This document shows positions 15,146 through 20,081 of a stretch of 45,186 nt of DNA, piece after piece (the first letter of the stretch is position 1; every line of letters starts with the position of its first letter). Source of the DNA: Phaeobacter sp. B1627 (lineage in GTDB: Bacteria; Pseudomonadota; Alphaproteobacteria; Rhodobacterales; Rhodobacteraceae); assembly GCF_006265095.1 (NCBI RefSeq), contig NZ_VCNK01000037.1, positions 1 through 45,186 on the forward strand. The letters are read 5' to 3'. Below the pieces are notes generated by a model, which searched no databases, was not told the origin of the DNA, and saw nothing but the letters and a program-made list of their open reading frames with translations. The translations under genes and the position numbers were made by a program.

Positions 15146-16114
15146 GTGCAGTTTAAATCGTATAACCAGCCTGTTTCAGACCTGCGCAAGCCACCTATGG
15201 CGACTGTGTTTTGCGCAGTGTGGCATAAACAGGCGGACAAACTGGATCTGTTGCGGTCCCATTGGGAAAACCTGAAGGCGCAGTCATTGCCGGTCGAGGC
15301 CTGCTATATTTTCGACAATGGGGATGAGGCACCGGACTGGCTTGATGCAACGTGGCATAGTTTTTCCGAGCCGCTGACCATCTATGAGGCCTGGGCGGCC
15401 GGGGTCGCGCTGAGCAACACCAAATATACCATGAACCTCAATATGGATGATCGCCTCGCCACCGATGCGGTGCGGATGATGGTCTCCACTGCCGAAGCGA
15501 CACAATCGGCACTCGTTGCCGGCGATTGGTTGGTCAGTTTCGACAAATCGCATCTCAACGCAGAATTTACAGTGACGGATCTGTGGGGGACGCATCATTC
15601 CCCGGAATGGCCCTTGATGGCACAGCCCAATTTGCGATTGGGCAGCGGCAGTGGCGATCGCGGCACCTTTGGCCCGGCGACGCTGTGGAATCTTGACATA
15701 TTGGGGAAATGGTATCCGACCCATTTCAACAATAATACGCCGATCCAGTCGATCGGCGACCAGATATTCTGGAAAGTCGTACTGCAGAACAAGCAAAAGG
15801 CGACCCGGCTGCCGTTGATCATCGGGCGTTACTTCTCCGATACCAATAGCCAGGCGGAGTTTCGACCGCACAATGACAACGCGTTTCTGAAGACATATGG
15901 TGTCAACCCTGTGTCGTTTGCGCAATGCGTGACCTCTGGTGATTTTTCCAAACGTCCGGGGCAGGCTGGCGCCGCGCTGGATGCAGAGGCGCGGGATGCG
16001 GCTGCGCCAGAGGCGCTGAATGCGGTTGAGCAGGCCAGCGCCCAACTGGCTGAAAAATTCCGCGCCGCGGGCCTCGGCGCCGGGGCCGGGCCAACGCCGG
16101 GAATATCTCGATGA
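15146..16114 (+). CDS. Putative glycosyltransferase (GT-A type) of the sugar cluster
   Basis: A 322-aa soluble protein. The first 230 residues have GT-A features: a beta-strand start (MATVFCAVWHKQADK), an acidic motif NLNMDD (Asp101, Asp102) in the place of a DxD metal site, and a long loop with GTFGPATLW. It has no transmembrane segment. The last 45 residues are Ala-rich and probably a coiled tail. The GTG start at 15146 has a GGAG site; an ATG at 15197 is possible. It overlaps the next gene by four bases. It is only distantly like family 2 enzymes, so acceptor and donor are unknown; the adjacent GDP-sugar genes suggest a dideoxyhexose donor. Confidence 0.6.
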   Translation: MQFKSYNQPVSDLRKPPMATVFCAVWHKQADKLDLLRSHWENLKAQSLPVEACYIFDNGDEAPDWLDATWHSFSEPLTIYEAWAAGVALSNTKYTMNLNMDDRLATDAVRMMVSTAEATQSALVAGDWLVSFDKSHLNAEFTVTDLWGTHHSPEWPLMAQPNLRLGSGSGDRGTFGPATLWNLDILGKWYPTHFNNNTPIQSIGDQIFWKVVLQNKQKATRLPLIIGRYFSDTNSQAEFRPHNDNAFLKTYGVNPVSFAQCVTSGDFSKRPGQAGAALDAEARDAAAPEALNAVEQASAQLAEKFRAAGLGAGAGPTPGISR

Positions 16115-16905
16115 TGCGGGTCCTTCTGACTGGAAGCGGCGGCATCGTCGGCAAGCATGCAAAACGGGCGCTTGCCGAGCTGGCACCCGATGCAGAGGTC
16201 CTGTGCAACACCGCCGATCTGACCGATCTGGCTGCGACGACGCGGATGGTTGAGGACCTGGGCCGGATCGATTTGGTCATCCATCTTGCCGCCCTGGTGC
16301 CGGTGGCCGAGGTTCGATCCAACCCCGCCCGGGCGTTTGCGGTCAATGTCGGCGGAACCATGAACCTCTTGTCGGCGCTGACGGATAACGCGGCCCGGTT
16401 CTTGCTGTGTTCCTCCAGCCATGTCTACGCGAGCAAGGACGATGCCATTGGGGAATGTGATCCGACCGTCCCCGTTTCGGTCTATGGCCAGACCAAGTTG
16501 CTGGCGGAACGGGCCGCAGATCAGATCTGCAGCGCCACCGGGCGGTCTCTGTGTCGGGCGCGGCTCTTTTCCATTCATGACCCGCAGCAGACAGGGAGCT
16601 ACCTGCGGCCCACATTGCAGCGGCGCTTTGCCGAGGCTGACCCCGAGGCAGAGTTTGAACTATATGGCGCGGGAAGTGTGCGGGATTTCCTGACCGCGCA
16701 AGAGGCCGCGCGACTGCTGGTGCAGCTGGCCCTGTCCGGAGCCGACGGGGTGGTGAACGTGGCGTCGGGGCAGGCGATCACCGTGGCGGATTTCGCGCGC
16801 GAACTGGCGCCATTCCCGCTAAAAATCAGGCCCCTGGGCCAGAACGACACCCTCAAAGCCGATGTGACTCGCCTGCGGGCGATCCTTGGAGAATACCATG
16901 CCTGA
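16111..16905 (+). CDS. NAD(P)-dependent sugar epimerase/reductase (extended SDR)
   Basis: A 264-aa Rossmann enzyme. The nucleotide motif is GSGGIVGKHA (residues 8-17), the catalytic Ser cluster is SSSHVY (101-106) and the YxxxK pair is Tyr125 and Lys129. At 264 residues it is shorter than GDP-fucose synthase or ColC (about 320), lacking part of the sugar-binding C-terminus. In this cluster it could reduce the 4-keto group of a GDP-4-keto sugar, the step needed after Gmd and the ColD-like enzyme. That role is inferred. It overlaps both neighbours. Confidence 0.75.
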   Translation: MMRVLLTGSGGIVGKHAKRALAELAPDAEVLCNTADLTDLAATTRMVEDLGRIDLVIHLAALVPVAEVRSNPARAFAVNVGGTMNLLSALTDNAARFLLCSSSHVYASKDDAIGECDPTVPVSVYGQTKLLAERAADQICSATGRSLCRARLFSIHDPQQTGSYLRPTLQRRFAEADPEAEFELYGAGSVRDFLTAQEAARLLVQLALSGADGVVNVASGQAITVADFARELAPFPLKIRPLGQNDTLKADVTRLRAILGEYHA

Positions 16906-17692
16906 AAAACAGATTTCGCCTGAAAAACAGATTTCGATCGTCATTCCCACCTTCAACCGCGCGGATATGCTGCCAAAGGCGATTGACTGCTCGCTGGCGC
17001 AGACGATGCCCTGCGAAGTGCTGGTCGTCGATCATGGCTCCACAGATGCCACGCCGGAGGTGGCGGCCGCCTATGGTGACAAGATCACCTATATTCGCCG
17101 CGAAAAGGATTTCGGCCCGCATTTCTGCTGGCTGGAGGGGGTTTTGCATGCAAACGGGGACTATGTTCACCTGCAGTATGACGATGACTGGATCCACCCG
17201 ACATTCATCAAGAAATGCTTTGCGGTGATGGCGGATGACGTCGGGTTTTCGTTCAGCGGTGCTGAGGTCATCGACGACAAGACCGGGCGCCAGATGATGA
17301 CCCAGTTTCTGGAGTGGTTGCCCGATACCGGAGCCTTCGAGAACCGCCTCGCCGAGGAAAAGATTGTCGGCTCGCTGATCTCGCCCGGCGCTGCATTGTT
17401 TCGCCGCCAGGTGCTGATCGACGCCCTGTATCAGGGACGGCTGCCGCTGCAGCAGAGCGAATATCATGGCGTGGGGCCGGATATTTTCGCCTCGCTGCTG
17501 TCGATGCTGCGCTATCCGAAAGTCGGCTTCGTCAAGGAGCCTCTGGCGAGTTTCCGGGCGCATGACGGCTCCATCACCATCGACGCGTTCAAGGATCAGG
17601 CCAAAAAGGCAAGCATCGCCGCCGCCTACAACGAAGTGCGCCGCTACTATGTCGAACTGAAAGCCATGCAATCTGTGCGGGGAGCGCAATGA
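16898..17692 (+). CDS. Family 2 glycosyltransferase
   Basis: A 264-aa GT2 enzyme: QISIVIPTFNRADMLPKAID at residues 11-30, the VVDHGSTDAT nucleotide loop, and a metal-binding DDD at 95-97 in QYDDDW. It has no membrane helices. The start at 16898 has a TGGAGA site and overlaps the SDR stop by eight bases. The N-terminus carries an exact duplication of PEKQIS that is absent from the usual family start. Likely transfers the sugar made by the neighbouring enzymes to a lipid or polysaccharide acceptor. Confidence 0.82.
   Translation: MPEKQISPEKQISIVIPTFNRADMLPKAIDCSLAQTMPCEVLVVDHGSTDATPEVAAAYGDKITYIRREKDFGPHFCWLEGVLHANGDYVHLQYDDDWIHPTFIKKCFAVMADDVGFSFSGAEVIDDKTGRQMMTQFLEWLPDTGAFENRLAEEKIVGSLISPGAALFRRQVLIDALYQGRLPLQQSEYHGVGPDIFASLLSMLRYPKVGFVKEPLASFRAHDGSITIDAFKDQAKKASIAAAYNEVRRYYVELKAMQSVRGAQ
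16901..16936 (+). repeat. Perfect 18-bp tandem duplication at the start of the GT2 gene
   Basis: Two identical copies of CCTGAAAAACAGATTTCG follow the ATG directly. It keeps the frame and adds six residues (PEKQIS twice). Being exact, it looks recent. Confidence 0.9.
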
Positions 17693-18882
17693 TGAAGAGT
17701 GACGTAAAGCCTGTGACCCTCGCAGAGGACACGATTTCACAGGATGAACTGGAACAGACGGCAGCCTGGATGCTGGCAGGCAACCGGCTCACCAAGGCCG
17801 GGCTGACGACGCTCTTTGAGGAAGAGTTTGCGGCCTGGATGGGGTGCAAACACGCCGTCTTCGTCAATTCCGGATCCTCTGCAAACCTGTTGATGATCTA
17901 TGCCGCCCAGGAGGCCGGCCGTCTGCGCAACAAGAAGGTGATCGCACCGGCTGTCAGCTGGGTGACCACTGTCTCGCCCTTGATCCAGCTCGGCTTTGAT
18001 GTCCGCCTGTGCGATTGTGACCCGGTCAATCTTGGTCTCGATCTGGAGCATCTGGAAACCCTGTGCCGCGAGGACGCGCCGGCGATGCTGATCCTCGTTC
18101 ACGTCCTCGGCCACGCAAACCACATGCGCGAAATCCGCGAGATCTGCGACCGCTACGGGGTTTTGCTACTCGAAGACAGTTGCGAGGCGCTGGGGTCGAC
18201 CTATGACGCGCGCAAACTGGGCTGCCATGGTGTGGCGGGCAGTTTCTCATTCTACTACGGCCATCATATTTCCACGATCGAAGGTGGCATGGTGGTGACC
18301 GATGACAGCGAGCTGCATCAGGTGATGCTGTCCCTGCGCTCGCATGGCTGGAGCCGTGATCTCGATCCGGCGCGGCGCGACAGCCTGCAGCAGGAACACG
18401 GGATCGATGATTTCCGCAATCTCTACACCTTCTATCACGCGGGGTTCAATCTGCGCTCTACCGACCTGCAGGCCTTTATCGGGCGTCTGCAGATTGCCAA
18501 ACTGGATGACATCTCCTGGGTCAGACAGGCGAATTTCAATTCCTATGCCGCGCAGCTCCCCGATTTCTTCCGCCAAGAGAGCGACGCAAATCTGGTGTCC
18601 TCCTTTGCCTATGGAACGCTGGTCGAGAACCGGATGGAGGTCTACGCGCATCTGAAGCGCCAGCAGATCGAGTGTCGCCCTCTGATTTGCGGCAACATCG
18701 CCCGCCACCCCTTCTGGACCCGGCGGTATGGGCATCAGGTGTTGCCAAACGCAGATCTCATTCACGAATTCGGCATCTACCTGCCCAATCATCACAATCT
18801 CAGCACTGCAGATGTGGAGCGGGTGACGACGGCTTTCAATGCAGTGGCCCGGCCAAAGGGGCTGCAGGCTCAGGCTGCCTGA
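17689..18882 (+). CDS. DegT-fold PLP enzyme with His in place of Lys: probable ColD-type sugar 3-dehydratase
   Basis: A 397-aa member of the DegT/DnrJ/EryC1/StrS fold. Aminotransferases of this fold bind PLP through a Lys in a motif such as IKNIT. Here the aligned segment is [12 protein letters not shown] (residues 189-200), with His192 at the Lys position. That exchange, together with [12 protein letters not shown] and the downstream SHGWSRDL motif, is typical of ColD, which removes the 3-hydroxyl of GDP-4-keto-6-deoxymannose using PMP and glutamate. The adjacent gmd makes exactly that substrate. I therefore call a 3-dehydratase rather than a perosamine synthase. The start overlaps the GT2 stop (ATGA). 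Product specificity needs biochemistry. Confidence 0.75.
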
Positions 18883-18962
18883 CGGGCCGCCCGACAGGCC
18901 ACCTGAAACGCCGCAGTGGGAACAGGCCTCACAGAGGGCCGCAGGACAACGGACGATATGCA

Positions 18963-20081
18963 ATGAAAAAAGCTCTGATCACTGGCGTCACCGGACAGGA
19001 CGGCTCCTACCTGGCTGAACTCCTTCTCGCCAAAGGCTACGAGGTGCATGGCATCAAACGCCGCGCCTCGTCGTTCAACACGCAGCGCGTGGATCATATC
19101 TATCAGGATCCTCAGACTGACCACGCGCGGTTCCGGCTGCACTATGGTGATCTGTCAGATACCTCGAACCTGACACGGATCATCTCTGAAGTGGAACCGG
19201 ACGAGGTCTACAACCTCGGGGCCCAGAGCCATGTGGCCGTGTCCTTTGAGGCACCGGAATATACGGCGGATGTCGATGGCTTGGGCACCCTGCGGATGCT
19301 GGAAGCGATTCGTTTCCTCGGTCTGGAGAAAAAGACCCGGTTTTATCAGGCCTCCACGTCAGAGCTCTATGGTCTCGTTCAGGAGATGCCACAGCGCGAA
19401 ACCACGCCCTTTTACCCGCGCAGCCCCTATGCGGTGGCCAAACTCTACTCCTATTGGATCACGGTGAATTACCGCGAGTCCTATGGCATGTATGCCTGCA
19501 ACGGGATCCTGTTCAACCATGAGAGCCCGCGCCGCGGCGAGACCTTCGTGACGCGCAAAATCACCCGGGGCCTGGCCAATATCGCGCAGGGTCTGGAAGA
19601 ATGCCTCTATATGGGCAATATCGACGCGCTGCGGGACTGGGGCCACGCCAAGGACTATGTGCGCATGCAGTGGATGATGCTGCAGCAGGATAATCCCGAG
19701 GATTTCGTGATCGCCACGGGCGAGCAGCATTCGGTGCGACAGTTCATTCTCTGGGCGGCGGCAGAGCTGGGTATCACCCTCGAGTTCCGCGGCGAGGGAA
19801 CCGAGGAACATGCGGTGGTGGCCGCCCTCACCGGGGACAAGGCCCCGGCGCTTCAGGTCGGGGACGTGATCCTGCAGATCGATCCACGCTACTTCCGCCC
19901 GGCCGAAGTGGAAACGCTGCTCGGCGATCCTTCGAAGGCCAAGAAAACCCTCGGTTGGGAGCCGGAAATCACCGTTCAGGAAATGTGCGCCGAGATGGTC
20001 GCTGCGGATCTCGACTGCGCGCGGCGTCATTCGCTGCTGCGCGACCATGGCTTTGACATGCCCGTCGCACTGGAGGCATAG
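18963..20081 (+). CDS. gmd: GDP-mannose 4,6-dehydratase
   Basis: A 372-aa enzyme converting GDP-D-mannose to GDP-4-keto-6-deoxy-D-mannose. The NADP motif is [12 protein letters not shown] (residues 8-19). The Gmd signatures [16 protein letters not shown] and [11 protein letters not shown] are present. The catalytic set is Ser131-Thr132 with Glu134 in STSELYG, and Tyr156/Lys160 in [24 protein letters not shown] is also diagnostic. Length and motifs are normal. It follows the ColD-like gene after 80 bases and supplies its substrate. No GDP-fucose synthase gene (fcl) is in the window, so a fucose end product is less likely than a 3,6-dideoxyhexose. Confidence 0.95.

Follow-up and report, generated by a model that had tools for sequence, protein, structure and literature searches.

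A putative exchangeable gene cassette for a GDP-derived 3,6-dideoxyhexose in Phaeobacter sp. B1627 and other bacteria

The contig NZ_VCNK01000037.1 of Phaeobacter sp. B1627 (analysed over its 45,186 nucleotides, hereafter the window) contains five genes at positions 15146–20081, all in one direction. We read them, at a probability of about 0.6, as an exchangeable, operon-like cassette for the synthesis and attachment of a GDP-derived 3,6-dideoxyhexose with a D-series product. The five open reading frames (ORFs) of an initial annotation, made from the sequence before this analysis, were all recovered at the same positions. They encode two glycosyltransferases (termed GTx and GT2 here), a short-chain dehydrogenase/reductase (SDR), a DegT-fold enzyme of the type dependent on pyridoxal or pyridoxamine phosphate (PLP/PMP), and Gmd:

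15146..16114, + strand: GTx glycosyltransferase, 322 aa from a GTG start (an internal ATG is possible), GT-A fold, Pfam-negative
16111..16905, + strand: extended SDR, 264 aa, PF01370 at 97.5 bits, proposed NADPH-dependent GDP-4-keto-3,6-dideoxy-D-mannose 4-reductase
16886..17692, + strand: GT2-family glycosyltransferase, 268 aa from a TTG start, PF00535 at 93 bits, proposed dideoxyhexose transferase
17689..18882, + strand: predicted PLP/PMP-type ColD-like 3-dehydratase, 397 aa, Schiff-base Lys replaced by His192, PF01041 at 241 bits
18963..20081, + strand: GDP-mannose 4,6-dehydratase Gmd, 372 aa, TIGR01472 at 580 bits (cut-off 415)

In the proposed pathway, Gmd would convert GDP-D-mannose to GDP-4-keto-6-deoxy-D-mannose, from which the His192 enzyme, its PMP renewed from glutamate, would remove the C3 hydroxyl as in ColD to give GDP-4-keto-3,6-dideoxy-D-mannose. 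The SDR would then reduce C4 and keep C5, yielding 3,6-dideoxy-D-arabino-hexose (tyvelose) or its D-lyxo isomer, between which the sequence does not decide. GT2 would transfer the dideoxyhexose, and GTx would add a neighbouring residue, perhaps fucose made from the same intermediate by the fucose synthase Fcl. Sequence features, gene linkage, clade membership and fold are what was observed; the substrate, the configuration of the product, the transfer roles and a place on the cell surface are predicted. GDP-mannose could be supplied by the products of two genes in the window's genome that match GMP_PMI (TIGR01479) above the cut-off, at 571 and 554 bits. The fuller proposal, that GDP-D-tyvelose or its D-lyxo counterpart is made by a second, ColC-free class of 3-dehydratase with a dedicated short reductase and that the pathway has spread by transfer, is more tentative and falls somewhat short of even odds.

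Several lines of evidence identify the product of 17689–18882 as very probably a ColD-like 3-dehydratase. First, its four top sequence matches in the PDB are ColD entries (204 bits), followed at a distance by the dehydratase E1 at 142 bits. Second, in a phmmer alignment His192 pairs with the ColD position occupied by Asn or Lys in the altered entries 3b8x, 2r0t and 3gr9, a residue named H188 in PMC8987622. Third, His192 and His193 are invariant in 19/19 aligned sequences (the window, 14 of the 22 cassette loci described below and four canonical ColDs). The alignment register at this column is sound, because four ordinary DegT matches found by tblastn (the second match of L037/L052, and L048, L049 and L050) show Lys there. 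The initial annotation had thus correctly read His for the PLP lysine, together with the surrounding motif, and in the comparison with ColD and RfbH that it proposed, ColD entries match best, the RfbH cut-off is missed and no Lys occupies the PLP position. An aminotransferase or GDP-perosamine synthase is rejected, since His192 rather than Lys stands at the Schiff-base column. An RfbH/E1-type enzyme is rejected as well: the score against the RfbH model is 211 bits, below the cut-off of 423 (the PseC cut-off is also missed), and the [2Fe-2S] cysteine set is absent, the E1 run DCYCAPGCDNTC aligning to a Cys-free stretch of the dehydratase. E1 carries a [2Fe-2S] cluster and has a reductase partner, as described in PMC8987622. 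ColD-type chemistry, in which the intermediate is hydrolysed and PMP is renewed by glutamate, is the best inference from these alignments.

The five genes are linked at several levels. Four-nucleotide ATGA overlaps join GTx to the SDR gene (16111–16114) and GT2 to the dehydratase gene (17689–17692), an alternative GT2 start at the ATG at 16898 would leave an 8-nt overlap with the SDR stop, and gmd, the next gene as the initial annotation had noted, starts 80 bp 3' of the dehydratase gene; this spacing points to one operon. The G+C content of the block is 0.597, compared with 0.626 in the 10 kb to its left and 0.679 in the 10 kb to its right. Promoter-like sites (2 observed, 1.5 expected) and terminator-like sites (8 observed, 4.1 expected, all within the gene span and 5/8 on the opposite strand) are weak and uninformative. 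A scan of genome contigs returned 25 loci, 22 of which carry this dehydratase at 66–89% identity in records titled Tritonibacter, Leisingera, Shimia, Epibacterium, Phaeobacter, Stappia, Acetobacter, Rhizobium and others. The carriers are marine and plant-associated alphaproteobacteria with a scattered distribution. The SDR, GT2 and dehydratase genes are present in 22/22 of these loci, with GT2 always between the other two, and they are accompanied by Fcl in 20/22, Gmd in 19/22 and GTx in 18/22. At a threshold of 150 bits, gmd is missing from L037, L040 and L041; it is apparently full-length in 18/22 loci and partial in L028, where it matches residues 1–137 only and runs into fcl (L028:9240–10587). 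The L028 enzyme groups with those of Leisingera and its genome, G238, is placed in the window's family, so the record label Nocardioides marinus is probably wrong.

Occurrence across genomes reflects the same association. Within the window's family, the SDR is found in exactly the same 5/394 genomes as the window-type dehydratase clade, and ten further genomes among the 394 have dehydratase matches at 35–40% only; these runs scored up to six and four candidates per genome, and a distant copy could be missed. Within the genus, SDR and dehydratase co-occur in the same 7/18 genomes. A class-wide search of 385 genomes found the window-type clade in the window's own genome only, seven others matching at 35–39%, and none of 55 records of plasmid relatives is at least 60% identical. 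The window's downstream flank occurs free of the cassette in congeners, with no trace of it in 5/6 stretches compared (L113–L117), and two of the genomes with a cassette-free flank (G293 and G782) carry the cassette elsewhere. The sixth stretch, from G780, is the nearest flank (85% over 2.9 kb) and retains a scar at L112:3604–3929, where the end of GTx adjoins a fragment of the SDR (residues 55–115). From these flanks we infer that the cassette has probably been gained and lost as a block.

The SDR has features that favour a plain C4-reductase which leaves C5 uninverted. Its best sequence match in the PDB is the GDP-4-keto-6-deoxymannose reductase Rmd (6x3b, E 1.5e-14), and reductases of this activity (2pk3 and 6x3b, 24–28% identity) hold Foldseek ranks 3 and 7. 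In an alignment of 16 SDRs (the window and 15 of the 22 loci), Ser/Thr102, Tyr125 and Lys129 are present in 16/16, in agreement with the initial annotation, which had noted Tyr125 and Lys129 in the 264-aa protein. His104 occupies the position of fucose-synthase Cys109 in 16/16 (placed by eye, two residues before the motif Tyr as in Fcls), and the segment presumed to hold His179 gives way to a shorter loop, FSIHDPxQxGS(Y/F)LRP, at residues 153–167 (also placed by eye; Phe for Ile once), in which His156 is invariant in 16/16. The fucose synthase GMER epimerises with Cys109 and His179 (PMC2279256), and the human enzyme uses the corresponding pair Cys116 and His186 (PMC12362431). The SDR scores 33 bits against the Fcl model NF047922, for which the cut-off is 500, and with His104 at the Cys109 position this rejects a ColC or GDP-L-fucose synthase. 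In Campylobacter jejuni, two C4-reductases (HS:53 and HS:3) are described as directly converting GDP-3,6-dideoxy-4-keto-D-threo-heptose into D-arabino and D-lyxo products (PMC10440746). Reduction at C4 with C5 retained is favoured because His104 stands at the Cys position and the presumed His179 segment differs, a reductase is the best solved match by sequence (other SDRs rank alike by fold), and C. jejuni provides a precedent.

The dehydratase falls into one of two clades present in the family. A 40-row tree groups the window enzyme with its relatives in a clade of 19 rows (support 99/96), and Escherichia coli ColD lies in a separate 15-row clade (100/99); the tree is midpoint-rooted and some of its long branches are flagged. 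The window enzyme did not group with characterised ColD in this tree, and it is 33–36% identical to the four canonical same-family ColDs aligned. The 3-dehydratase, its link to Gmd and its SDR partner, all proposed by the initial annotation, are supported by homology, invariant residues and the 22/22 linkage, but the enzyme belongs to a clade apart from ColD. Canonical ColD also occurs in the window's family: the copy in L053 reaches 548 bits against E. coli ColD, a ColC-type gene lies beside canonical ColD in 10/10 same-family loci examined (L053–L062), and gmd is matched in 8/10 short stretches around canonical-type ColD (L016–L025). The L053–L062 loci suggest colitose-bearing roseobacters. 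Because canonical ColD and a ColC-type gene occur together in the family, having a 3,6-dideoxyhexose does not by itself make a roseobacter unusual, contrary to the initial annotation, which had called such a sugar unusual for a roseobacter-type surface; dideoxyhexose genes are not new to the family, and the second dehydratase type is.

A solitary DegT-fold paralogue is present in 4/18 same-genus genomes (L105:9008–10192, L106:8940–10124, L107:8997–10169 and L108:8912–10090). It is 35–44% identical to the window enzyme and is placed by the tree in the window clade on a long branch. The Lys/His column holds Tyr (G-Y-Q-L) in three copies and is gapped, with a different stretch, in the fourth; N254 and R256 are altered. 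Its neighbours, named by reading, are housekeeping genes (ccmF-like, enoyl-CoA hydratase, citrate synthase and gltX). Judged by these residues, the paralogue looks catalytically dead or re-purposed.

Several observations weigh against the D-series pathway proposed above. In 20/22 loci the cassette is accompanied by a true fcl, which a plain route from Gmd through dehydratase and SDR does not need. Fcl is also found in 14/14 cassette genomes searched, against a background of 106/295 same-family genomes for Fcl/ColC at the same threshold. The resemblance of the SDR to Rmd is weak, with UDP-sugar epimerases and NDP-sugar dehydratases ranking equal or higher in Foldseek, and its loop 156–163, which contains His156, is modelled at a predicted local distance difference test score (pLDDT) below 50. 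Genome G238 has no gmd at E≤1e-60, its local copy in L028 being the one matched over residues 1–137 only. Finally, the open-access literature yielded no assay or sugar analysis for the cassette.

The consistent presence of Fcl raises an unlikely but substantive alternative, L-colitose, in which Fcl would, like ColC, epimerise the dehydratase product at C5 and reduce it at C4, and the SDR would perform another or later step. Even where no fcl is local (the window, L037 and L040), Fcl is present elsewhere in the genome. In the window's genome it lies on contig G000:C60 (521 bits) with a second gmd; in the sister species T. horizontis it directly follows gmd (L026:10374–11345), which is not so in the window. 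The report of no fcl or ColC in the initial annotation therefore stands for the window but not for the genome as regards fcl, which most relatives also carry at the cassette. The window contains no ColC-type gene, and a search of its genome at E≤1e-60 with the Fcl model detected none either. The type of Fcl argues against colitose. In 11 of the 14 genomes the Fcl lies next to the cassette and scores 477–528 bits on NF047922, whereas the genes beside canonical ColD score 292–323 bits (seven such genomes sampled), and a tree of 30 Fcl-type and 10 ColC-type rows separates the two types with support of 100/100. The cassette Fcls belong to more than one Fcl lineage, intermixed with others, and look like ordinary fucose synthases. 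Moreover, the invariable partner of the dehydratase (22/22) is the SDR and not Fcl. We read Fcl as a likely source of GDP-fucose for a second residue added by GTx, but it may instead use the dehydratase product. The initial annotation had left the final sugar as colitose-like or a different 3,6-dideoxyhexose; the colitose-like option is the weaker one, because the SDR has no epimerase Cys and the cassette fcls are not ColC-type, and a D-series sugar is favoured.

An L-sugar would also result if the SDR were a compact epimerase-reductase acting through His104 and/or His156, which we consider improbable. Both histidines are invariant in the aligned SDRs, the first at the Cys109 position, and either could still serve epimerisation because of the low-confidence loop 156–163. 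However, Cys and His are required in the fucose synthases described so far (PMC2279256, PMC12362431), and among solved structures the SDR matches a plain reductase best by sequence. Least probable, and by some way doubtful, is a dehydratase that uses another NDP-4-keto sugar (e.g., a GDP-heptose or a CDP or dTDP sugar) with Gmd serving fucose only: three of the 22 loci have no gmd at 150 bits, a fourth has a partial copy and GDP-heptose 3-dehydratases exist (PMC10440746), but the genomes of L037, L040 and L041 carry gmd elsewhere, and most loci have an apparently full-length local copy. Overall, gmd is found in 13/14 cassette genomes searched, G238 being the exception.

The two glycosyltransferases named by the initial annotation are retained, GT2 by its PF00535 match and GTx by a modelled GT-A fold. 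GTx has no Pfam match in the window at E≤0.001 and matches the wcaE model at E 1.1e-4 over 59 aa. Its AlphaFold2 model (mean pLDDT 74.4) matches GT-A enzymes in Foldseek, including the GDP-fucose-using WrtF. A fucosyltransferase role for GTx is only a guess, since the fold search returns a generic GT-A fold and WrtF is a weak match among many (TM-score about 0.5, 11–13% identity, root-mean-square deviation up to 15). The GTx family is conserved, with D101-D102-R103 invariant in 13 aligned members. Among ten neighbouring ORFs of relatives, Pfam assigned 3/10 to glycosyltransferase families (L037, L043 and L044) and 3/10 to a CDP-alcohol transferase, an esterase and a subtilase, found no match for 4/10, and named no acceptor.

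The cassette can be compared with several known systems. Rmd reduces its substrate without epimerising. The SDR is comparable to Rmd (2pk3, 6x3b), its best solved match by sequence, in fold (where other SDRs score alike) and in the reduction of a GDP-4-keto-6-deoxyhexose, which is Rmd's reaction and is predicted for the SDR; unlike Rmd it is shorter, shares only the 24–28% identity found by Foldseek, and has its own motif FSIHDPxQxGS(Y/F)LRP and a presumed 3-deoxy substrate. The route to GDP-L-colitose through ColD and ColC (known from E. coli and other bacteria, with canonical-type loci L053–L062 in the window's family) likewise uses Gmd, a PMP-type His 3-dehydratase and then an SDR, but the cassette differs in its separate dehydratase clade, its lack of ColC, its 264-aa SDR without the epimerase Cys and its constant GT2. 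The GDP-3,6-dideoxy-heptose pathways of C. jejuni, as described in PMC10440746, are also GDP-linked and combine a 4,6-dehydratase, a PLP-dependent C3-dehydratase and a separate C4-reductase, with D-arabino and D-lyxo products from some reductases like those proposed here; they differ in the heptose substrate and a native separate C5-epimerase, and the likeness is one of described reactions. The RfbH/E1 pathway to CDP-paratose, CDP-abequose and CDP-tyvelose shares a DegT-fold 3-dehydratase with His and tyvelose as a possible end product. It differs in its CDP sugars and in a [2Fe-2S] enzyme that works with a partner reductase (PMC8987622); the cassette's dehydratase lacks the cysteine run of E1.

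PMC8987622 describes tyvelose as CDP-linked and traces colitose back to GDP-mannose. Searches of the open-access literature returned no report of this cassette, none on GDP-tyvelose and none on a dideoxyhexose with Roseobacter; for dideoxyhexose with lipopolysaccharide and Rhizobium, titles and abstract openings tell of no such sugar in rhizobia. The sugar would be easily missed in genome surveys, because the annotated plasmid relatives, among the 30 of 55 listed, are mostly labelled DegT/DnrJ/EryC1/StrS family aminotransferase or RfbH. If the proposed pathway is correct, a GDP-linked dideoxyhexose other than colitose would be transferred among roseobacters, rhizobia, Stappia and Acetobacter, and there would be a GDP route to D-series dideoxyhexoses together with an enzyme pair for making them. 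It would also show how such a surface sugar can be acquired and lost as a unit.

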